Assembly: GCA_029881175.1 (NCBI GenBank)
Contig: JAOUNC010000024.1
Coordinates: 1 to 13,634, forward strand
DNA from: Nitrospirota bacterium
Lineage (GTDB): Bacteria > Nitrospirota > Nitrospiria > Nitrospirales > UBA8639
DNA: 13,634 nucleotides
Direction: 5' to 3'
Below are positions 12-9,522 of the stretch, piece by piece (positions within the stretch are counted from its first letter, which is position 1; each line of letters begins with the position of its first letter). The translations under genes were made by a program, and so were the position numbers. The notes beneath the pieces are model-generated. The model worked only from the letters and a program-made list of their open reading frames with translations. It was not told the DNA's origin and did no database searches.

Positions 12-1577
12 CTAGAGGGATTCGTAGACTTCGTCGCGGAGGTCTTTGACGCGGATGTGGTAGCGGTTGATTTTTTTGATGAGGCCCTGGCGGCTGATAC
101 CCAGCTGTTCAGCCGTTCGCACTTGATTGAATTGGCAGGCCTGTAAGGTGTCTTTGATGATCTGTTCTTCCAGTTCACCCAAAATTTCCGGCAGACTTTT
201 TCGTTCGCCACTTTCAGGAGTTTTCGAGCTCTGCGCGGCACGTTTGATGGTGAGATCGAGTGCATCCTCATTGATAATTGCCGCTCGCACCATGACCGCT
301 AAGCGCTTCATTTCATTCCCAAGCTGCCGTACATTGCCGGGCCAATCATATTCCACCAAACGACGCATGGCGGACGCTGCGATTTTTTTCCGAGGTTTCC
401 CCATTTCTTTGCAATGCAGATCCAGGAAGTAATTGGCGAGCAAGGGAATATCAGCCGGAATTTCCCGTAAGGCCGGCGTCTGAATATGGACGACCTTCAA
501 TCGATAGTAGAGATCTTTCCGGAAAGTCCCTTTCTTGATCGCCTCTTCCAGGTTGGTATTGGTCGCCGCCACGACACGGATGTCGATAGGAATCGGCTTC
601 CGTTCCCCTACGGGTTCTACCACACGTTCTTGCAACACCCGTAAGACCTTGGCTTGAGCTTTGAGTCCCAAGTCCCCGATTTCATCCAGGAAGAGCGTGC
701 CTTTATGCGCTTGTTCAAATTTTCCAATTCTGGCCTCGACCCCCGTGGCGGTGCCACGGCCAATTCCAAAGAGTTCGCTTTCAATGAGGTTTTCCGGCAA
801 CGCGGCACAGTTGATGGCGACAAAGGGATACCGCGCCCGCGGACTGGAATAGTGGATGGCTTTGGCAACCAATTCTTTGCCCGTCCCGTTTTCTCCGGTG
901 ATGAGGACATCCACCGAACTATCCTGTATTTGATCGATGACGCGTACCAACCGTTGCATGGGGAGGCTATTCCCGAGCAGGTTTTGGGTCGAGAACCGCC
1001 CTTCGACTTCTTTCCACAACTGGGCGTTTTCTTCTTCTAACCGTTGGCGCTCATGCTGTAATTGTTCCATTTGCTGTATTTTCTGCAAGGGAATGGAGAT
1101 TTCCTCGACTAAGGCTTGAGCGAGTTTCTCATCCCTTGGAGAAAAGGCCTTGCCTTTTTTATTCACAGCTTCGAAGACACCGAATATTTCGCCCGTCGCG
1201 CTCCGCAAGGGAACGGCCAACAAAGTGCGGGTGCGCCGCTTGGTGTGGAGATCAATCCCGGAGAAAAACCGGTCATCAGATTGGACATCGTTGACATTGA
1301 GCACTTCTCCCGTCGCCACACAATTTCCTGCAATGCCCAACCGTGCATCCAACCGCAGCATTTGACCATTTTCCTTAAGCGGGAACCATAGCTCTTGTCG
1401 CTCCGCATCCAAGATGAACACGCTGGCCATCTCCGATTCCAAACGCCGACAGGCTTCATCCCTGATGAGTTGGAAAAATGCGGGGCAGTTGGTTTCTTGG
1501 TTGAGACGGATCAGGAATGGGCTCGCAGGGAGCTTGGGGCCTGACAGACGTTCTTTATTTTCGGAATGGTTTGGCAT
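12..1577 (-). CDS. GAF-AAA+-Fis transcriptional activator (sigma-54 activator family) with altered GAFTGA loop
   Basis: This is a 521-aa cytoplasmic regulator. An N-terminal GAF sensor (about residues 28-168) is followed by a coiled linker rich in Q, E and R (169-192). A AAA+ domain (about 197-435) shows Walker A GENGTGKE (228-235), Walker B GTLFLDEIGD (293-302), sensor I VVAATN (335-340), an arginine-finger region (352-360) and the sensor II box WPGNVRQL (412-419). A Fis-type helix-turn-helix lies at about 484-505. The GAF domain carries N139-K140-x4-F145-x3-D149-E150, the NKxnFx3DE signature of cyclic-nucleotide-binding GAF domains. The loop that contacts sigma-54, normally GAFTGA, reads GTATGV (275-280), so sigma-54 activation is uncertain. 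There is no receiver domain, so control is presumably by ligand binding to GAF. The ATG lacks a clear Shine-Dalgarno, but a good sigma-70 promoter lies upstream. The family is certain; the ligand and targets are not known. Confidence 0.93.
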   Translation of the reverse strand: MPNHSENKERLSGPKLPASPFLIRLNQETNCPAFFQLIRDEACRRLESEMASVFILDAERQELWFPLKENGQMLRLDARLGIAGNCVATGEVLNVNDVQSDDRFFSGIDLHTKRRTRTLLAVPLRSATGEIFGVFEAVNKKGKAFSPRDEKLAQALVEEISIPLQKIQQMEQLQHERQRLEEENAQLWKEVEGRFSTQNLLGNSLPMQRLVRVIDQIQDSSVDVLITGENGTGKELVAKAIHYSSPRARYPFVAINCAALPENLIESELFGIGRGTATGVEARIGKFEQAHKGTLFLDEIGDLGLKAQAKVLRVLQERVVEPVGERKPIPIDIRVVAATNTNLEEAIKKGTFRKDLYYRLKVVHIQTPALREIPADIPLLANYFLDLHCKEMGKPRKKIAASAMRRLVEYDWPGNVRQLGNEMKRLAVMVRAAIINEDALDLTIKRAAQSSKTPESGERKSLPEILGELEEQIIKDTLQACQFNQVRTAEQLGISRQGLIKKINRYHIRVKDLRDEVYESL

Positions 1578-1616
1578 AGTGATCGGTGCGATATTTTTTG
1601 GTCGTACAAGCTACCC

Positions 1617-1629
1617 TCTGTCAGACAGA
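1617..1629. promoter_or_regulatory. Palindrome in the regulator leader, possible operator
   Basis: TCTGTCAGACAGA is a perfect inverted repeat with 6-bp arms around a single central base. It sits about 10-25 nt downstream of the predicted start point of the regulator promoter, where a bound protein could block transcription. Autoregulation by the Fis-type HTH of the regulator is one possibility. No second copy was noticed. Confidence 0.35.
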
Positions 1630-1646
1630 TGAATTTTTTCTGGCGT

Positions 1647-1676
1647 ATTATCCCTAGGCAGGATTCACCTGGTCAA
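1647..1676 (-). promoter_or_regulatory. Sigma-70-type promoter of the GAF-AAA+ regulator
   Basis: On the minus strand, TTGACC (1676-1671) and GATAAT (1652-1647) are separated by 18 bp. Each hexamer matches five of six consensus bases. Transcription would begin near 1640, about 60 nt before the regulator's ATG. The regulator therefore probably has its own housekeeping promoter and does not depend only on read-through from the cyclase gene. Confidence 0.6.
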
Positions 1677-1766
1677 TGGGAAAGAGATTTTACCCACTAA
1701 GCGGAGGGGGAAGACCTCGGGTGGTGACAAAAGAAACCAACAGGGAATAGCCACTCGGTTCACTTT

Positions 1767-3704
1767 TTATGGCACACGTTGCTCAGTGCCTTTTAAATAC
1801 AGTCGATACACCGGAACGCTTTGCGTCTTCCCTTTTAACATCACCGAGCCTACTTCTGTGAGGAACCATGGATGAACTCCCAAATGTTGTTTAGTGGTTT
1901 CTCCTATGAGTATCCGGCACACCGTGTTTGGGTCTTCATTCTTCCAGACGTCTTTTTGGAGATTCTCTAAGCGAGCCGCAATATTCACGGCATCGCCGAT
2001 GGTGGTAAACTTCATACGTTCCGCGCTCCCCAAGCTCCCCACCATGACTGGTCCTGTATTGATGCCCACCCGCATCCTGATCAACCCCAAGCCCTGCTGT
2101 TGCCAGCGGGTGTTCAGTCGAATCATTTCTTGTTCCATTGCCAGACTGCATGTCACCGCATCTCTGGCATTGCGGCGGATATCCTCTTCGGATTGTTCCC
2201 TGGTCAGGACTCCAAATCCGGCTTTGATCATATCCCCATAATAATCATCAATGAGACCCCCATGGTCGGTAATGATCTTCACCATGGTATCCAGATAATC
2301 ATTGAGCCATTCCCATAATTGATTGGGAGGCATGCTTTCTGCCAGGGTGGTGAACCCTTCCAAATCAGTAAACACGGTCGACACCACCTGCCTGTGTGGG
2401 CGCCATCGTCCCTGTTCTAAAAATTGTTCACGCTGTTCCCATACTGCCGCCGCCACTTGGGGCGAGACATGCCGTGAGAACAACGCCATGACTGCGCGTC
2501 GTTCCTGTTGTTCCCGCTTGGAAATGAAAGCTGTGACCACCATGGCATTTACGACCCATCCCATGGCCGTGGGGATCCATGGAATCCACCAGCTATTGGC
2601 AATCGAAGCGACCACGATGCTGCTCAGCACGAGTAATCCAAACAGCACCACCACCGAAAACCGCCAGGCGCCACGCACCCAGAACCCGACCAAGGCGCCC
2701 CCCAACACCCACAAGGCTATCCAGCCGGCCTCTTGGCCATCTGAGAGAGTGGCAATGGGTGCGCTCCCTCCACGCGCGTTCCGAATGAGTTGCGCCACCA
2801 TGTGGCCATGCAATTCAACTCCTGGCACGCGAGGGCATCGAGTCAAACTGCCACATTGCGAGGTATAGAAATAGTCTTTGACGCCCTCAGACACCACACC
2901 CAGGAGGACAATGCGATCGTGAATGACTTCTTGGCTGACCTCTCCCGCTAGCACCGTTTGCAAGGAAAAGGTAGGAAACGCGTGAACCCCTCGATCCAGG
3001 TTCAACAAGAATTGATAGCCCTGGGCATCGGCATTCACATAACTCCCATCATGCGATTCGAAGGGACGAAAGACTGTTTGCCCCAGCTTCAACCAATTGG
3101 GATTTTCTCCGGCAGGCTCTGGCTTGACTCCATCCTGTTCCAGATAGTTCAGCGCGAGAAGAAAGGGTAATGAGCGAAAAACGGTTGTTCCATCATCCAA
3201 AAATAATAACCCACGCCTCACCACACCATCTTGATCCACCACCATATCGCTGAATCCCACCCGATCTGTCCCCTTTAAGATCGTTGGCCCCGCAATACCC
3301 CCTTGTTCCGGTTTCCCAAATTTCATCACCATCATAATTTGGGGGAACCGCTGGAGAACCTGGTTCAACGCGGCACGCCCTGGAAGGACTTCCAGATCAC
3401 GATAGATATCGACACCAATGACTCGCGGACCCTGAGCCTGAATGCGTGTCAGTGCCTTGGCCAGCATCTCATCGGAAATGGGCCAATGGCCTAAAGCCTG
3501 AATATCTTGATCGGTAATGGTGACCAGGGTGATGGGCGGAGATTCGTTGATGTGCTCTGATGACAGCCGCATGGACCAATCATAGGCTTCCAACTCCAGC
3601 CCTTCCAAAAGACCTTGGCTCCGCAAGCCTATGACACCAAGAAAGACCAAGAACGTCATGGCGACAATGTGAAAGACGGAACAACGAAGTAGAGATGGGG
3701 CCAC
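1767..3704 (-). CDS. CHASE2-domain class III nucleotide cyclase, membrane bound
   Basis: This 645-aa protein has a first membrane helix (about 9-27), an extracytoplasmic CHASE2 sensor domain (about 30-320), three more membrane helices (about 326-345, 349-369 and 373-394), a linker, and a class III cyclase catalytic domain (about 435-635). Metal-binding aspartates are D447 (VFTDLEGFT) and D491 (YYGDM). The transition-state pair N574 and R578 lies in VNIAARLE. The lysine that normally selects adenine is D487, and the partner position is T567, so ATP specificity is not assured. The start is GTG with Shine-Dalgarno AAGGGG six bases upstream (3711-3716); no ATG fits as well. It should turn an external signal into cAMP or cGMP. 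It lies between two GAF-domain genes on the same strand, with gaps of 189 and 158 bp. Confidence 0.93.
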   Translation of the reverse strand: MAPSLLRCSVFHIVAMTFLVFLGVIGLRSQGLLEGLELEAYDWSMRLSSEHINESPPITLVTITDQDIQALGHWPISDEMLAKALTRIQAQGPRVIGVDIYRDLEVLPGRAALNQVLQRFPQIMMVMKFGKPEQGGIAGPTILKGTDRVGFSDMVVDQDGVVRRGLLFLDDGTTVFRSLPFLLALNYLEQDGVKPEPAGENPNWLKLGQTVFRPFESHDGSYVNADAQGYQFLLNLDRGVHAFPTFSLQTVLAGEVSQEVIHDRIVLLGVVSEGVKDYFYTSQCGSLTRCPRVPGVELHGHMVAQLIRNARGGSAPIATLSDGQEAGWIALWVLGGALVGFWVRGAWRFSVVVLFGLLVLSSIVVASIANSWWIPWIPTAMGWVVNAMVVTAFISKREQQERRAVMALFSRHVSPQVAAAVWEQREQFLEQGRWRPHRQVVSTVFTDLEGFTTLAESMPPNQLWEWLNDYLDTMVKIITDHGGLIDDYYGDMIKAGFGVLTREQSEEDIRRNARDAVTCSLAMEQEMIRLNTRWQQQGLGLIRMRVGINTGPVMVGSLGSAERMKFTTIGDAVNIAARLENLQKDVWKNEDPNTVCRILIGETTKQHLGVHPWFLTEVGSVMLKGKTQSVPVYRLYLKGTEQRVP

Positions 3705-3862
3705 AAGGATCCCCTTAACGATTCAGGCACCCTGGAGGGGAGAAGGAAACATGGTTGGTTTTTTCTAACGCTTTTCTGGGATCACGACCAACATAATTTT
3801 TCTGATTTTGACAAGCGACGGGGAACAACACGGCTCTCACCTCGGGACCAATTGCCGGAAGA

Positions 3863-5143
3863 TCAGGAACAGAGATTATCCGAAGGCGGACCGGTCGACA
3901 CCTCCATTGGGAAATGAATGTGAAAAATGGTTCCCACATTTATTTCACTCTCCACCTCGATGACTCCCGAATGCGCCTCGACCACATCCTTGACAATTTT
4001 TGTCCCCAACCCGGTTCCACCCTGCTTCCTACTGATGACCCTGGAGGTGAACAAAGTATCCCGAATTTCGGCAGGCATACCCCGTCCAGTATCCATCACG
4101 GAAACGTGAATCGTCTTTCCATTTGATTCAATTTGTCCCTTTATCGTAATTGAACCACCTTGGGGAACTTCCGCAATGGCATTATTGACAAGGTTATAAA
4201 AGGCGTTGAACAACCGTGATTCATCGGCTTGCATCTCCGGCAATTCCACAATTCCTTCATGAAGCAACGTGATCCCTTTTTCCTGGGCCATCAAGTTCAA
4301 CGTGTCAAACACGGAAGCGACGACATGGTGCAGTTTGCAAGGGGCGAACCGTGGCGGGCTCGTCAAACCTTTCACGCAATCGGCAATTTCTTTGACGCGC
4401 CCTTGAATCCGTTTTGCGTTATTCGCCACCATCTCAATCACTTCAAGGCACACTTCGTGGCTGGCTAAGGCTTTGTTTGGATCAAACTTGGGCAGACTCC
4501 CAAAAACTTCATTAATCTCATCTTTCAGAAGGGAAGTCCCGCACAGTACCGGCATAAGCATATTTTTGACATCATGACCAATATTTCCAAGTATTCGTGC
4601 CACCTCAGCTAATTTGGCTTCCTGAAATAACCGGGCCTGTTCAATGGACAGCGCGGTGAACGCCGCGATGATCGTTAAGATAGCCACGTCGTCCTGATTT
4701 AACCTGCCTTCCCGCTTGTTCATTACCTCCAGGACTCCAATTGGATGTCCTTCCCATCGTTTGAGGGGAAGGGCAATCATGTCCTCGGTGTGAAAGCCCG
4801 TAAGGTGATCGATTTCGCCAAGATGCCGCTGATCTTCCTTTGCGTCCTTAACCACCATAGATTTTCCTGTGGCGAAAACCGTTCCTGCTATCCCTTGTGC
4901 CCATGGAAACGCCGTGCCCGTTTTGGGCGGTCGGTCACCAATAGCATGGTAGAAGACCAATTCCTTTGATTCCGGATTGGCCAACAACACGCACCCGGCT
5001 TGGCAGTTGACCACCTCTAAGGCAATCTTTAACCCTTGCTCCACCACATCTTCCACCCTGAGATGCTGAAAAAGTGCTTCACTAATTTTCCGGGCGGCTT
5101 CTAGCTCACGCTCCTTGCGATCCAATTGGTTCGATGGATTCAT
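3863..5143 (-). CDS. GAF-domain sensor histidine kinase
   Basis: This is a 426-aa soluble kinase. A short coiled region (about 8-25) leads into a GAF domain (about 27-170). A dimerisation helix follows with the H-box GHDVKN, where H190 is the likely phosphorylation site, then an HATPase_c domain with N-box NLVNNAIAE (317-325), G1 box DTGRGM (351-356) and G2 box GTGLGT (376-381). The frame is open further upstream to 5227, but the ATG at 5143 is chosen because GGGAGG stands six bases before it; the extra 28 residues upstream look non-coding. There are no membrane helices, so it senses something in the cytoplasm. The GAF domain has only a degenerate NKFDE-type motif (N142, K143, L148, D152, V153). 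No response regulator is adjacent, so its phosphotransfer partner is unknown. Confidence 0.92.
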   Translation of the reverse strand: MNPSNQLDRKERELEAARKISEALFQHLRVEDVVEQGLKIALEVVNCQAGCVLLANPESKELVFYHAIGDRPPKTGTAFPWAQGIAGTVFATGKSMVVKDAKEDQRHLGEIDHLTGFHTEDMIALPLKRWEGHPIGVLEVMNKREGRLNQDDVAILTIIAAFTALSIEQARLFQEAKLAEVARILGNIGHDVKNMLMPVLCGTSLLKDEINEVFGSLPKFDPNKALASHEVCLEVIEMVANNAKRIQGRVKEIADCVKGLTSPPRFAPCKLHHVVASVFDTLNLMAQEKGITLLHEGIVELPEMQADESRLFNAFYNLVNNAIAEVPQGGSITIKGQIESNGKTIHVSVMDTGRGMPAEIRDTLFTSRVISRKQGGTGLGTKIVKDVVEAHSGVIEVESEINVGTIFHIHFPMEVSTGPPSDNLCS

Positions 5144-5274
5144 GTCTGGCCTCCCAAATGGAGTCAATGCTTGCAAATTTTTTGCATACTGCCAGGATCC
5201 CATTAGGGATTTAGCGAAGGTTAGCAAATTTAAGGGAAAAAAGCTTTCACTGTCTTAGAGGGCCTTATTATTTT

Positions 5275-5296
5275 GAAAGTTGCCCTTTAAACTTTC
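5275..5296. repeat. Inverted repeat between phosphodiesterase-like and kinase genes
   Basis: GAAAGTT (5275-5281) and AACTTTC (5290-5296) form a 7-bp stem around an 8-base loop in the 217-bp gap between the MBL-fold gene and the kinase gene. On the minus strand it is followed by AAAATAAT and not by a T-run, so it is not a standard terminator. It may be an operator or an mRNA-stabilising hairpin. Confidence 0.3.
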
Positions 5297-5360
5297 GTTG
5301 TCTCCTCTCGGCATTAAATAAATGTGGTGTGTGAAATATTAAGGAAGAAATAAAAATATT

Positions 5361-6152
5361 CTACAATTCTACTTCTTGCCCTTCTTCCAAAACCGTCACC
5401 CTTTCAATTTCAAGTTGAGCGATTTCTTGAAGGATGGCTTCACGCACGGTGGGCTTCATATGGTAGACATAGAGCGGTAGGTCAGGTTTGCCAATTTTTC
5501 GAAATTCTTGGGCAAGCAGCGTCGGAGTGAGGTGCTTACTTTGAATCGCAATGTCCATCATTGAATTAGGAAAGGAAACCTCGATGAATACCCCTTTGAG
5601 ATTGGGAATGCGGGCGGCGACCTGCCAAATTTCTTCTGTGAGGTGTGTATCACCACTATAGATCCAAGCGGCGATGTCATCTCGAATCACATAGCCCACC
5701 GTTTCCACTGTGTGGTTGACGGGGATAGGGGTGACACTGATTCCGCCTGACACGGAAACTTCTTTTTTTGCCTCCAGCCCCTTCGCCCGCAAGATGGAAT
5801 GGCGCGGGCCTTGAATATTGAAAAAATTCGGAAAGACTACGTCATTGAAGATATGCTTTTGGAGGCCACCGATTACTGAAGGTACGCTCGCCACCACCAC
5901 TTGATGATCCACCAGTCCAGAGAGATTGTCCACGAGCGGTGGAATGTCCTTGATGTGATCAAGATGGAGGTGAGAAAGAAGGATATGTTTGACGCGTTGC
6001 TGTTCTGCCAATGTCAGACCGGAAGCGAGCGTGCCAGCATCCATCATGAGTTCGTCATTGACCAGGAATCCCACGCTTCGACAGAGGGTTGAACCCGTTG
6101 AACCTTTCACCAACAAGTCGGACCCATGTGATCCAAGAACGCGGATTTTCAC
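5361..6152 (-). CDS. MBL-fold hydrolase, likely class II 3',5'-cyclic-nucleotide phosphodiesterase
   Basis: This 263-aa cytoplasmic metallo-hydrolase has a complete metal site: SHLHLDH (H61, H63, D65, H66), H147 in VNHTVET, D168 in SGDTH, and H207 or H231 near the C-terminus. The text FIEVSFPN (189-196) and KHLTP (206-210) resembles class II cyclic-nucleotide phosphodiesterases (PDEase_II, yeast PDE1 type) more than generic hydrolases or RNase Z. It would hydrolyse cAMP or cGMP to the 5'-monophosphate. The start is GTG; the opening MKIRVLGSHGS is the usual first beta strand of this fold, so it is preferred despite a weak Shine-Dalgarno. It lies two genes upstream of the CHASE2 cyclase on the same strand, which supports a role in ending the cyclic-nucleotide signal. 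Another MBL substrate remains possible. Confidence 0.82.
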   Translation of the reverse strand: MKIRVLGSHGSDLLVKGSTGSTLCRSVGFLVNDELMMDAGTLASGLTLAEQQRVKHILLSHLHLDHIKDIPPLVDNLSGLVDHQVVVASVPSVIGGLQKHIFNDVVFPNFFNIQGPRHSILRAKGLEAKKEVSVSGGISVTPIPVNHTVETVGYVIRDDIAAWIYSGDTHLTEEIWQVAARIPNLKGVFIEVSFPNSMMDIAIQSKHLTPTLLAQEFRKIGKPDLPLYVYHMKPTVREAILQEIAQLEIERVTVLEEGQEVEL

Positions 6153-6231
6153 GGATTGGGACTTTCAAAAAATTGCGTTGTTCGAATTCTCTTCATACAA
6201 TTTCAGGCCTTATGCTATCTGTGCACATCAT

Positions 6232-6247
6232 CATGCAAAAATGCATG
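6232..6247. promoter_or_regulatory. Operator-like inverted repeat CATGCA-AAAA-TGCATG
   Basis: Two perfect 6-bp arms flank four A residues, 80-95 bp before the GTG of the phosphodiesterase-like gene. The size and symmetry suit a dimeric DNA-binding protein. No partner regulator is identified. Confidence 0.3.
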
Positions 6248-6437
6248 AAATAACACAACCTTTAAATTTACGCTCTCGCCTGAATTGGCCCATGGGGTCT
6301 TCAAGAAGAGCTGACCTGATATCTATGATCCAAATAAACTGATATGCCATTCAAAATATGTCCATACCGATGCCTCAACATGGGAATTATCGTTGTTCCG
6401 CTTTCCATCCCCTAAACCACCCGCACTTTTCCCCCAA

Positions 6438-6461
6438 CCTCCCTCACAGCCAACAGGGAGG
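6438..6461 (-). terminator. Possible terminator hairpin after the methyltransferase gene
   Basis: On the minus strand CCTCCCT (6461-6455) pairs with AGGGAGG (6444-6438) around a 10-base loop, starting 6 bp after the methyltransferase stop codon. The next bases are TTGGGGGAAAA, so there is no proper U-tract. It may be a weak or factor-assisted terminator. Confidence 0.3.
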
Positions 6462-6467
6462 GGCAAC

Positions 6468-7466
6468 CTATTTCTTTACCTCCCAGATCGAGTCCACGAA
6501 GTAGGCCTGTGTATCAAACAGGTGCTTCACGATCCGGTATCCACTCTTTTCAGCCAACCCTTCGATTTCTGATGGGGTGTACTTGTAGGAATGCTCGGTT
6601 TGCATCGGTTCCCACGCCCTGAAGGCAAACTCCTTCCCTAATGCCTCAATGAACACTACCTGCTCTCGAGTACTGTAAATGTGTCTCTCGACTGCATGTG
6701 TTCTTGGATTGTAGTGCCCCTGTTGGACATACTGATTTTTCACAAAATTCGCACCCAGCTTTCGATTTAGGACATCCAGCAGATGGAGGTTGAATCGTTC
6801 AAACACTCCCGTGGAATCGTTATACGCTGCATACAGCGTCTTCGGATGTTTCATGAGATCGAACCCGATCATGAGGTAGTCCCCATCGTTTAACGATTCT
6901 CGCAATTGCCGAACAAACAGTTCTGCCGCTGGCAACTCCATATTTCCAATGGTCGAACCCAGAAAGAGAACGATGTTTCGCAAGTGGGGTTGCTCTTTGA
7001 TCACACGAAGTCCATCGAAGTAATCAGCGGCCAATCCTGTGACCGACATGGTGCTCTGTAAAAAACGCAACTCAAGAAATGCTACGAGATTCTTAATAGC
7101 CCCCTCGGAGATATCGATTGGCACATAGTCGAATGTCAGCTGACTCTGGATGAAGTACTCAAGAAGAATTTGAGTCTTTCCACCATCTCCCGCGCCCAGC
7201 TCAATCACCCGAAATGCCTCCTTCGCCAGCATATTAGTGATGGACTGTTTGTGCGTCTGGAATATCTCAATTTCACATTGAGCTGGATGGTACCCTGCAA
7301 GTTGGGTAATCTCGGTAAAGATTTCGCTGCCTCGATCATCGAATATCAACCACGAGGGCAGACGTTTCGGTTCTCTCGATAGTCCGTCTAGCACAGCTTG
7401 AGCGAACTGGTCATCGGATGATGCGGTTGCGGTTCCAGAACGCAAATTGTGAAATTCAAATGACAT
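6468..7466 (-). CDS. EgtD-like SAM-dependent methyltransferase (L-histidine N-alpha-methyltransferase family)
   Basis: This 332-aa protein matches the Methyltransf_33/EgtD family over its full length. It shows the family opening around RLPSWLIFDDRGSEIF (35-50) and Y59, SAM motif VIELGAGDGGKT (87-98), acidic ribose-binding PIDIS (116-120), FLGSTIGN (168-175, asparagine N175 in the amino-acid pocket region) and TEHSYKY (290-296), whose E291 and S293 fit the substrate-recognising pair of EgtD. EgtD trimethylates the amino group of histidine in ergothioneine synthesis. The next step needs an EgtB-type sulfoxide synthase, and none is in this window. The gene is instead divergent from a diiron oxidase, so the substrate may be another amino acid or product. 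AAGGAGG lies 3 bases before the ATG. The family call is strong; the substrate is open. Confidence 0.88.
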   Translation of the reverse strand: MSFEFHNLRSGTATASSDDQFAQAVLDGLSREPKRLPSWLIFDDRGSEIFTEITQLAGYHPAQCEIEIFQTHKQSITNMLAKEAFRVIELGAGDGGKTQILLEYFIQSQLTFDYVPIDISEGAIKNLVAFLELRFLQSTMSVTGLAADYFDGLRVIKEQPHLRNIVLFLGSTIGNMELPAAELFVRQLRESLNDGDYLMIGFDLMKHPKTLYAAYNDSTGVFERFNLHLLDVLNRKLGANFVKNQYVQQGHYNPRTHAVERHIYSTREQVVFIEALGKEFAFRAWEPMQTEHSYKYTPSEIEGLAEKSGYRIVKHLFDTQAYFVDSIWEVKK

Positions 7467-7494: not shown

Positions 7495-7521
7495 TTCAGG
7501 GTTTGCTCGCCCTGAACGAGC
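7495..7521. repeat. Two overlapping inverted repeats in the divergent control region
   Basis: TTCAGGG (7495-7501) pairs with CCCTGAA (7510-7516), and GCTCG (7505-7509) pairs with CGAGC (7517-7521). The two stems share bases, so only one can form at a time. They lie between the divergent methyltransferase and oxidase genes. The text also resembles a worn copy of the repeat type seen at 8858-8973. It may be an operator or simply repeat debris. Confidence 0.35.
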
Positions 7522-7580
7522 TTGCTAGGATGAGGTGTCATGTCCTTTATACACACATTTCCTATTTTAATCGTCCCTTG

Positions 7581-8642
7581 ATGAACGTTTCTTCCCTCCC
7601 AATCCTTACGGCCATCGATTTCCGTGAAGCCGAAGAGTCGTTTACGCACCTTCTTCAGCATGATGATCTCGATCAGTATGTGTCCAACGCACCGGAAGGC
7701 CTGGAGACATTCGAGCATGTTTTGGGGTTAGCCCTCTTGGAAGCCTACGAGACCCAATCTCCATCTCCCCACGCGCATCTCTTCCTTCAACGAATTCTGT
7801 ATCGAATCAACCGATTAAAACTGTTTTGGTATGACGATCTTGAGAATTACACCAATGAGAATTCAACGTTTCTCTTCTCGGTGCATGCGAAAATTGAATC
7901 AGCATGGCAGGCCTGGGAAACCCAACACATCGCTATCGCTTCCTTGAAGGACTTAGATATCGAGGTCGCGCTCCGGGAACGCACCGCTAAAGATCTTGAT
8001 CCTCCACCATCGAAAATTGGCCTCTTCTTCCGCAATGACATGTCACTTATCGGATATCGTCGATTGTTAGCCATTGCCTCTTTGGACGGATTAGTGGAGG
8101 CCAGCCAATTGTCGCGAGTCATTGGAGGCGTGGGTAATGAAATTCAAAACATGCTCACCAAAATCCTTCTCGAAGAGTATGGAGGAGGGAAATTGGCGAG
8201 GAAGCATTCATCATTTTTTGCTTCCATGCTGGAAGAATTTGGCATGGATGCCACGCCAGAGGCCTACTACGCCATTGTTCCCTGGGAAGTACTTGCCAAC
8301 ATCAACCACAGTTTTTCCCTTTGTGAGCGAAAGAGAAATTTCTTACGGTATATTGGCAGTTTTCTCTACTTTGAAATATCAGTCCCTGCAGCATTTCAAC
8401 ATTATAAAACTGCGGGGGAACGTCTCGGTTTCAGTGAACAAGCTATCAGCTACTGGGATATACATATCAAAGAAGACTTACGGCATGGGCAGTGGATGCT
8501 AGATGAGGTCGCCCTGCCACTCATTCATCGCTATAAAGACCTCGCCTGGGAAATTTTGTGGGGTTATGACCTGCAACGATTTCTCAGTACACGCGCCAGC
8601 CAAGCCATCGCCCAATCTGTCCAACAGGCCGAAAACGGTTAG
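7581..8642 (+). CDS. Haem-oxygenase-like diiron oxidase (HDO) family protein, iron-containing redox enzyme
   Basis: This protein has 353 residues from the chosen ATG. It belongs to the all-helical haem-oxygenase-like fold used by non-haem diiron oxidases such as CADD, UndA, BesC and SznF. A full set of likely iron ligands is visible: E199 and H209 in EEYGGGKLARKH, E265 in the helix FLYFEISVPAAF, and H295-x3-D299-x2-H302 in the last helix, the same H-x3-D-x2-H spacing as CADD. Such enzymes use O2 to oxidise, cleave or desaturate amino acids and fatty acids. The open frame extends upstream to a TTG at 7503 and an ATG at 7530, but that part overlaps inverted repeats; ATG 7581 leaves a 114-bp divergent promoter region. 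No strong Shine-Dalgarno supports any of the starts, so the N-terminus is tentative. Substrate unknown. Confidence 0.85.
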   Translation: MNVSSLPILTAIDFREAEESFTHLLQHDDLDQYVSNAPEGLETFEHVLGLALLEAYETQSPSPHAHLFLQRILYRINRLKLFWYDDLENYTNENSTFLFSVHAKIESAWQAWETQHIAIASLKDLDIEVALRERTAKDLDPPPSKIGLFFRNDMSLIGYRRLLAIASLDGLVEASQLSRVIGGVGNEIQNMLTKILLEEYGGGKLARKHSSFFASMLEEFGMDATPEAYYAIVPWEVLANINHSFSLCERKRNFLRYIGSFLYFEISVPAAFQHYKTAGERLGFSEQAISYWDIHIKEDLRHGQWMLDEVALPLIHRYKDLAWEILWGYDLQRFLSTRASQAIAQSVQQAENG

Positions 8643-9258: not shown

Positions 9259-9522
9259 CTAAAATTGAAAATCTTGAGAATCCTCTTCACCTTCTTCGGC
9301 CTCTGAAGCCCCCCCATCAGATAAATTTACATAGTGACGAGCCCAGGACAAATAAATATTGGCACTATCCTTCATTGCATCGGTGCCATTAATCAGTTTA
9401 CCGACAACTTCCTGGTCACCTCCACTCATTTCAATCTCACGTGCCTTGGCTTCTAACGCGTGATGAAAGCTTTGCATCTGTTCGGTCAACGTCTGCACTT
9501 GTTGTTTCAAATCACTGCTCAT
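9259..9522 (-). CDS. Small acidic helical hypothetical protein
   Basis: This is an 87-aa protein of unknown function. Residues 1-33 form a likely amphipathic or coiled-coil helix (LKQQVQTLTEQMQSF and following), residues 36-67 a second helical stretch containing YLSWARHYVNLSDG, and the tail 72-84 is strongly acidic (EAEEGEEDSQD). It has no cysteines, no signal peptide and no membrane segment. AGGGG stands nine bases before the ATG. A strong terminator separates it from the oxidoreductase operon upstream, so it is probably expressed on its own. No terminator follows it, so its transcript may run into the tRNA-Asn. A 10-bp palindrome CCTAATTAGG lies 28 bp before the start (9550-9559). Good ribosome binding and codon use suggest a real gene. 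Confidence 0.7.
   Translation of the reverse strand: MSSDLKQQVQTLTEQMQSFHHALEAKAREIEMSGGDQEVVGKLINGTDAMKDSANIYLSWARHYVNLSDGGASEAEEGEEDSQDFQF

Follow-up and report, generated by a model that had tools for sequence, protein, structure and literature searches.

A Nitrospirota locus encoding a CHASE2 nucleotide cyclase, a class II phosphodiesterase-type protein and GAF regulators: a probable derivative of a conserved cyclic-nucleotide module

Gene content of the locus

We analysed a stretch of 13,634 nucleotides, referred to here as the window, from a Nitrospirota bacterium (assembly GCA_029881175.1, 82% complete in 509 contigs; contig JAOUNC010000024.1, C112 in our numbering). Among named proteins, the nearest relatives bear the labels Nitrospirota, Nitrospirales or Nitrospira. 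The window carries four genes on one strand that encode a GAF-AAA+-Fis regulator, a CHASE2 class III nucleotide cyclase, a GAF histidine kinase and a protein of the metallo-beta-lactamase (MBL) fold of the class II cyclic-nucleotide phosphodiesterase type (Table 1). The locus is probably a cyclic-mononucleotide circuit derived from a conserved module of cyclase, MBL phosphodiesterase and CRP. Gene content, intact catalytic residues, conserved pairing, the CRP boxes of relatives and the motif changes reported below were obtained by computation. An earlier note on this DNA, made from the letters alone, had named the domains of the four genes and given gaps of 158-217 bp between them, and both statements hold. 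All Pfam matches lie above the curated cut-offs: GAF 51.8, Sigma54_activat 220 and HTH_8 42.1 bits for the AAA+ protein, CHASE2 200.5 and Guanylate_cyc (PF00211) 61.7 bits for the cyclase, GAF_2 63.8 and HATPase_c 83.9 bits for the kinase, and PDEase_II 47.5 (cut-off 23.7) and Lactamase_B_2 54.7 bits for the MBL protein. The gaps are 189, 158 and 217 bp, the last with the kinase starting at 5143. The kinase frame 3863-5227 encodes 454 amino acids from a TTG codon; its residue 29, the Met at 5143, is the likely start and fits the 426-residue orthologues of genomes G156, G157 and G162. Promoters and terminators predicted in the window do not exceed those of shuffled sequence, and the contig ends on the left 11 bp past the AAA+ gene.

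Table 1. Features of the window and of the gap upstream of the MBL gene.
Feature	Position	Strand	Basis and remarks
GAF-AAA+-Fis regulator, 521 aa	12..1577	-	Open reading frame (ORF) and Pfam; GAF with NKFDE; AAA+ loop 1 is GTATGV
CHASE2 class III nucleotide cyclase, 645 aa	1767..3704	-	D447/D491/N574/R578 intact; specificity residues D487, K565, T567
GAF histidine kinase, no receiver	3863..5143	-	Open frame to 5227; H-box around H218
MBL-fold protein, class II cyclic-nucleotide phosphodiesterase type, 263 aa	5361..6152	-	Pfam and motif
Gap between EgtD-like and MBL genes	6153..6467	-	No CRP gene
EgtD-like histidine methyltransferase, next gene upstream	6468..7466	-	
Iron-containing redox enzyme domain (Haem_oxygenas_2) gene	7503-8642	divergent from EgtD-like gene	Pfam

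The cyclase retains the metal ligands D447 and D491 and the transition-state residues N574 and R578 of class III nucleotide cyclases, and its hydrophobicity profile, with one segment near the start and one stretch after CHASE2, is that of a membrane receptor. In the MBL protein the metal motif HxHxDH (H61, H63, D65, H66) is accompanied by H147, D168, H207 and H231, each of which is present in 101 of 101 aligned relatives; in a wider alignment of 34 rows H231 is only nearly invariant. Motif, MBL family and PDEase_II profile are those of class II phosphodiesterases, and the protein fits the [T/S]HXHXDH motif that an excerpt of PMC9293780 assigns to atypical class II enzymes. Against the NCBIfam equivalog NF041851 it scores 40.1 bits, the cut-off being 400.

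Pairing of cyclase and MBL genes

In a sample of 148 genomes of the phylum, relatives of the MBL protein (E <= 1e-20) were found in 78 and class III cyclases in 112. Both occur in 73 genomes, the MBL protein alone in 5, a cyclase alone in 39 and neither in 31; a cyclase is present in 73/78 MBL-bearing genomes and 39/70 others, an odds ratio of 11.6 (p = 6.5e-8) that ignores kinship. The association extends to gene order. In 23 of the 77 other MBL-bearing genomes, no more than 1.5 kb separates the MBL gene from a class III cyclase gene; these 23 span 8 family groups, with 13 genomes in one of them. As a rough estimate, fewer than one such adjacency would be expected by chance. Within 3 kb of the MBL gene, 21 of the 77 genomes have a gene for a cyclic nucleotide monophosphate (cNMP)-binding protein, 35 a GAF gene, and 47 at least one of cyclase, cNMP-binding or GAF genes; these neighbourhood counts are lower bounds, since many contigs are short. 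A Pfam scan of five of the GAF neighbours returned four GAF-HD proteins and one GAF-PAS-cyclase with a cNMP-binding domain. In the window's own genome, both class III cyclases found adjoin an MBL gene, and one of the two cNMP-binding proteins found is a CRP beside the second MBL gene. Outside the phylum, a profile-based survey of 80 named cyclase loci found CHASE2 cyclases with an adjacent MBL gene in Pseudoalteromonas, Thiobacillus and Methylotenera. In addition, an Arcobacter gene adjoining a CHASE2 cyclase (L096:7280-9628) encodes a single protein of 782 residues that fuses a class II phosphodiesterase-type MBL domain with GAF and HD. The conserved pairing of a gene for making and a gene for breaking a nucleotide is well supported.

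Two findings weigh against this pairing. In several families the MBL gene lies between tryptophan-synthase (trpA-type) and accD-folC genes, as named from their sequences, with no cyclase near, and 5 of the 78 MBL-bearing genomes have no class III cyclase that we could find. Both would be at home with an RNase Z-like or other phosphoesterase of housekeeping function, and RNase Z indeed ranks top for the MBL protein in a profile search against the PDB. However, PDE1 and Apyc1 match in the same search, the PDEase_II score is twice its cut-off, the motif is that of the atypical class II enzymes, and the neighbours are often cyclase, cNMP-binding and GAF genes; we consider the housekeeping explanation improbable and retain phosphodiesterase as the predicted activity.

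The neighbourhood of the cyclase's relatives would also fit another origin. In the context that we fetched, its near relatives outside the genus adjoin TPR-CHAT genes (G127, G135, G137, G043, Desulfobacula, Syntrophaceae), several of them also near ShlB or DUF928 genes, and relatives of the AAA+ protein lie beside or about 2 kb from CHAT genes in C507 of the same genome and in G155, G137 and G164. The cyclase clade could ancestrally belong to a cluster of two-partner secretion (TPS), TPR-CHAT, CHASE2 cyclase and DUF928 genes, the window being a relocated remnant of it and the MBL neighbour incidental. We regard this as unlikely, although less so than the housekeeping alternative: the cyclase-MBL association is seen in two different arrangements within the genus, that of the window and that of C456 and G155 described below, and CHASE2 cyclases of a different branch are repeatedly paired with MBL genes, both across the phylum and among Pseudomonadota. 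The cluster of TPR-CHAT and CHASE2 cyclase genes, with a ShlB-type transporter and/or DUF928, is itself recurrent (L034, L037, L039, L040, L046, L054), and a literature search for the CHAT domain, CHASE2 and two-partner secretion found no paper with any two of them.

Conservation of the four-gene set

Conservation of the neighbourhood across Nitrospirota, which the earlier note had proposed to check, is seen as order within the genus, with a modular content, and not as an exact set throughout the phylum. Among 20 same-genus genomes, the MBL gene occurs in 17, the AAA+ gene (E <= 1e-100) in 14 and a relative of the kinase (E <= 1e-40) in all 20. The four genes stand on one contig in the same order and strand in five, namely the window's genome, G157, G165, G160 and G162; all but the first of these carry an additional kinase and an additional, divergent cyclase within the set. 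Elsewhere, members are missing from single contigs: G154 has no cyclase, G153 no kinase, G152 neither of these, and G166 none of the three MBL neighbours. At strict cut-offs, relatives of the kinase were found in 14, of the cyclase in 16 and of the AAA+ protein in 3 of the 148 phylum genomes, the kinase and AAA+ counts resting on at most 10 or 11 candidates scored per genome. The phylum at large does not share this exact set of four as a unit.

Common signalling genes brought together by chance, with no messenger shared among them, would account for the rarity of close kinase and AAA+ relatives in the phylum, for the loss of members in relatives and for gaps that lack operon-type spacing. This explanation is nevertheless very unlikely, the least probable of the alternatives weighed here: all four genes keep order and strand on one contig in a quarter of the same-genus genomes, a recurrence that is more than chance, and the cyclase-MBL adjacency and the CRP boxes described below would be left unexplained.

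The window's genome has a second locus of this kind on C456, with a CRP gene followed by an MBL gene and then a cyclase and a kinase on the opposite strand, the contig ending inside the kinase; G155 has the same arrangement plus a response regulator. In G155 a further MBL gene, which adjoins the AAA+ gene, is broken by several stops (L213:9829-10158), the intact copy being that of the CRP-type locus. The second CHASE2 cyclase of the expanded loci (L165:14040-16400, L176:14211-16571 and relatives) has D-E-R or D-gap-R at the specificity positions, and some copies have lost the second metal Asp or both (DGNR, DHNR, ENNR); it is likely a degenerate partner, judging from these residues. Two tandem cyclase proteins of 1188 and 1152 residues adjoin the CRP-MBL genes of G157 (L166:3607-10807), and the one that was scanned has cyclase, AAA and TPR domains.

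A proposed CRP link in relatives and its absence from the window

Of 18 MBL loci from the genus, 12 have a CRP-type gene as the immediate upstream neighbour of the MBL gene. Allowing up to two mismatches to the CRP box consensus TGTGA-N6-TCACA, all 12 have a box no farther than 400 bp from the MBL start, as do G150, where the CRP gene is a fragment, and G160, where no CRP gene was seen. At one mismatch or fewer, 12/18 MBL loci have a box compared with 0/117 control ORFs, which were called mechanically in the same loci with overlapping loci kept in; 18 controls reach two mismatches. Ten of the 14 boxed loci carry a tandem pair exactly 23 bp apart. The CRP proteins have the helix RETLSR, RESLSR or RETVSR, close to the E. 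coli CRP recognition helix, and most have the nucleotide cassette GEMxxLExxxRSAxV. We read the ancestral circuit as one in which CRP with its nucleotide would control the phosphodiesterase. Elsewhere in the phylum there is no clear excess of boxes before MBL genes, with 2/77 at one mismatch and 7 at two.

The window differs from these relatives. Its MBL gene, and those of G153, G154 and G156, have neither the CRP gene nor the boxes; in the upstream gap the best match to the box has three mismatches, and across the window 6 loose matches were found for 6.7 expected. The proposal that the locus is self-contained was therefore not sustained, since both receptor and boxes of the 12 loci have no counterpart here. 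The equivalent gap of G152 is occupied by a CRP gene and by a box that deviates at one position, in the order EgtD, CRP, box, MBL, from which it follows most simply that CRP and box were lost from between EgtD and MBL in the window's kin. EgtD as a replacement of CRP was considered and dropped, the genes for EgtD, CRP and MBL standing in a row in G152. The window locus looks like a derived form, in a genome that keeps a CRP at the paralogous C456 locus, and the loss would mean that the circuit is being rewired within one genus.

The GAF proteins

The same note had counted two GAF readers and had making, breaking and sensing encoded together. The first two functions are borne out as a gene pairing by the adjacency in 8 family groups and by co-occurrence; for sensing, the two GAF domains part ways. 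Taking NKFDE as the mark of cNMP-binding GAF domains, the motif is complete in the AAA+ protein and present in 23/24 rows of its family, which supports nucleotide binding by this protein. It occurs in 2/61 other GAF ORFs, including the GAF-PAS-cyclase that adjoins an MBL gene. The kinase GAF reads NK...L...DD instead and 0/30 kinase rows have NKFDE, so that this test gives it no support as a predicted nucleotide binder. These counts, and those for GAFTGA below, include some rows in which one gene is represented more than once by overlapping stretches. In the window's genome, the GAF of the AAA+ paralogue on C507 is the only other scored domain with NKFDE; this list of 15 PF01590 matches is incomplete, having missed the window's own two GAF domains.

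The GAFTGA loop of AAA+ activators contacts sigma-54. All 23 GAF-bearing rows in which the loop is present, the window's included, have G[TVI]AT[GD]V in its place, and the sole receiver-type protein in the list has GAFTGA. A scan of the window for sigma-54 promoters gave one site at threshold for 0.8 expected from shuffles. With GAFTGA missing in all 23 rows, sigma-54 activation by the AAA+ protein is doubtful, and because regulators lacking GAFTGA are reported, in an excerpt of PMC10274813, to act on sigma-70 promoters, we do not call it a sigma-54 activator.

Base choice of the cyclase

We aligned the cyclase with solved structures. At position 487 the window has Asp, CyaB and CyaC (3r5g, 1wc0) have Lys and Cya2 (2w01) has Glu; at position 565, two before T567, the window and Cya2 have Lys and the two adenylyl cyclases Asp. 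Thr567, the second specificity position in the mapping to the mammalian cyclases, is kept. A charge inversion of the mammalian-type K/D pair was considered and dropped after this alignment, the second position being the conserved T567. Asp487 is neither the ATP-selecting Lys of adenylyl cyclases nor the Glu of guanylyl cyclases, the latter being present in 5/118 rows. These rows come from the best 120 of 690 cyclase homologues, of which 118 were scored, and their triplets are DKT in 95, NKT in 10, EKT in 5, KET in 4 and others in 4 (two incomplete).

The two positions covary. Across 252 unique rows with intact catalysis, 128 have Lys487 without Lys565, 109 the reverse, none both and 15 neither, and corrected mutual information puts the pair 13th among 15,086. 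In a mixture-model tree, 46 of 47 swap rows fall in one set (support 91), the remaining row, L069, being a long branch; repeated reversions of the swap in a FastTree tree were not confirmed under this model. The covariation therefore mostly reflects one event, and the swap appears to have occurred essentially once.

Excerpts of the literature identify 2w01 as the guanylyl cyclase Cya2 (PMC4886424), describe guanylyl cyclases with Glu for Lys and variable partners including Thr (PMC4215837), and list the position two before the second specificity site among those changed (PMC5967339). A pyrimidine cyclase was rejected, as the specificity residues of PycC, in the part of PMC11224242 available, differ from those of the window.

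CRP-type proteins near MBL genes carry S, N, T or D at the base-reading position, which we mapped on E. coli numbering, and not the Glu of XC_0249. That Glu is taken from excerpts of PMC11224242 and PMC3770947. An argument for cGMP from the receptor side was dropped, as these residues lean to cAMP; the lean is not decisive because Asp, an acid like the Glu of XC_0249, occupies this position in the CRP that the window's genome encodes. On balance we slightly favour cAMP as the nucleotide of the circuit, with cGMP a plausible but lesser candidate and any other nucleotide improbable. It is a tentative suggestion, and rather an unlikely one, that the swapped CHASE2 clade (Asp, Asn or Glu at 487 with Lys565) has given up its selection for ATP and produces cGMP or a mixture. 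If true, it would constitute an undescribed bacterial cGMP pathway in Nitrospira-type nitrite oxidisers and CHAT/TPS-bearing relatives, complete with a dedicated MBL phosphodiesterase and readers of the GAF or CRP type. The swapped pair poses a directly testable question on base choice by class III cyclases.

Flanking genes

The EgtD-like protein scores 266.6 bits, under the NCBIfam equivalog cut-off of 290.9, and its gene is also upstream of the MBL gene in G153, G154 and G152 and of the broken copy in G155. Further upstream in the window lie a tRNA-Asn gene and, from their translations, genes that we read as a putative 2-oxoacid:ferredoxin oxidoreductase operon. Seven other loci of the genus likewise have two of the latter upstream of their MBL gene, which places all eight at the same genomic site. 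An ORF of 87 codons adjoining the tRNA gene (9259-9522) has no NCBIfam match, and a similar 87-residue ORF lies upstream of the G160 MBL gene.

Proposed circuit and comparison with known systems

Every activity, ligand binding, feedback direction and base identity in the following model is inferred. The membrane CHASE2 protein would sense something outside the membrane and its cyclase domain would make a 3',5'-cyclic mononucleotide, which the MBL enzyme would hydrolyse. A probable receptor of the nucleotide is the GAF domain of the AAA+-Fis protein, which would then alter transcription, probably by a route other than ordinary sigma-54 activation given the missing GAFTGA, and the GAF kinase may feed in or read out via a response regulator encoded elsewhere. 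In relatives, CRP and the nucleotide would control expression of the phosphodiesterase through the CRP boxes, likely as feedback; in the window's lineage this link would have been lost at this locus, with a CRP kept at C456.

A limited literature search, in which part of the matches were viewed, found no published account of such a locus in Nitrospirota. In the part available, a study of a Nitrospira metagenome-assembled genome treats its CRP/FNR regulators as NnrR- and FNR-like with adenylate cyclase unmentioned (PMC8510549), and a term search of the N. marina genome paper gave no match to cyclase, phosphodiesterase or CRP (PMC8115632). Taken together, ordinary parts stand here in an interesting arrangement that is conserved yet rewired in part, and the cyclase adds one oddity that lends itself to testing.

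The cAMP-CRP circuit of E. coli, with its phosphodiesterase, is Cya-CRP-CpdA. The locus likewise has a cyclase and a phosphodiesterase, to which relatives add a CRP whose recognition helix resembles that of E. coli and boxes of the TGTGA-N6-TCACA type. The locus differs in having a class III CHASE2 cyclase, an MBL-fold phosphodiesterase and its genes together, and the window has GAF proteins instead of the CRP gene and boxes. The Xanthomonas XC_0250/XC_0249 cGMP pathway likewise has a linked cyclase and, as in relatives of the window, a cNMP-binding receptor, whereas S, N, T or D stands in place of Glu at the base-reading position of the CRP-type receptors here, and an MBL phosphodiesterase is present. 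Synechocystis Cya2 (2w01) has in common with the window cyclase an acid for the ATP-selecting Lys and a Lys two before the second position; the window has Asp and not Glu, Thr and not Gly, and its cyclase is a CHASE2 membrane protein. Cyanobacterial and other TPS/TPR-CHAT/CHASE2/DUF928 clusters house near relatives of the window cyclase, but CHAT, ShlB and DUF928 are absent beside the window genes as far as the contig reaches. Finally, the atypical and classical class II phosphodiesterases Rv1339, YhfI, PDE1 and Apyc1 share the MBL family, HxHxDH and the PDEase_II match with the MBL protein. Unlike them, the MBL protein falls far under the NCBIfam equivalog cut-off, and its kind is often encoded beside CHASE2 cyclases, a conserved pairing that would give a functional name to a family of otherwise generic MBL-fold hydrolases.

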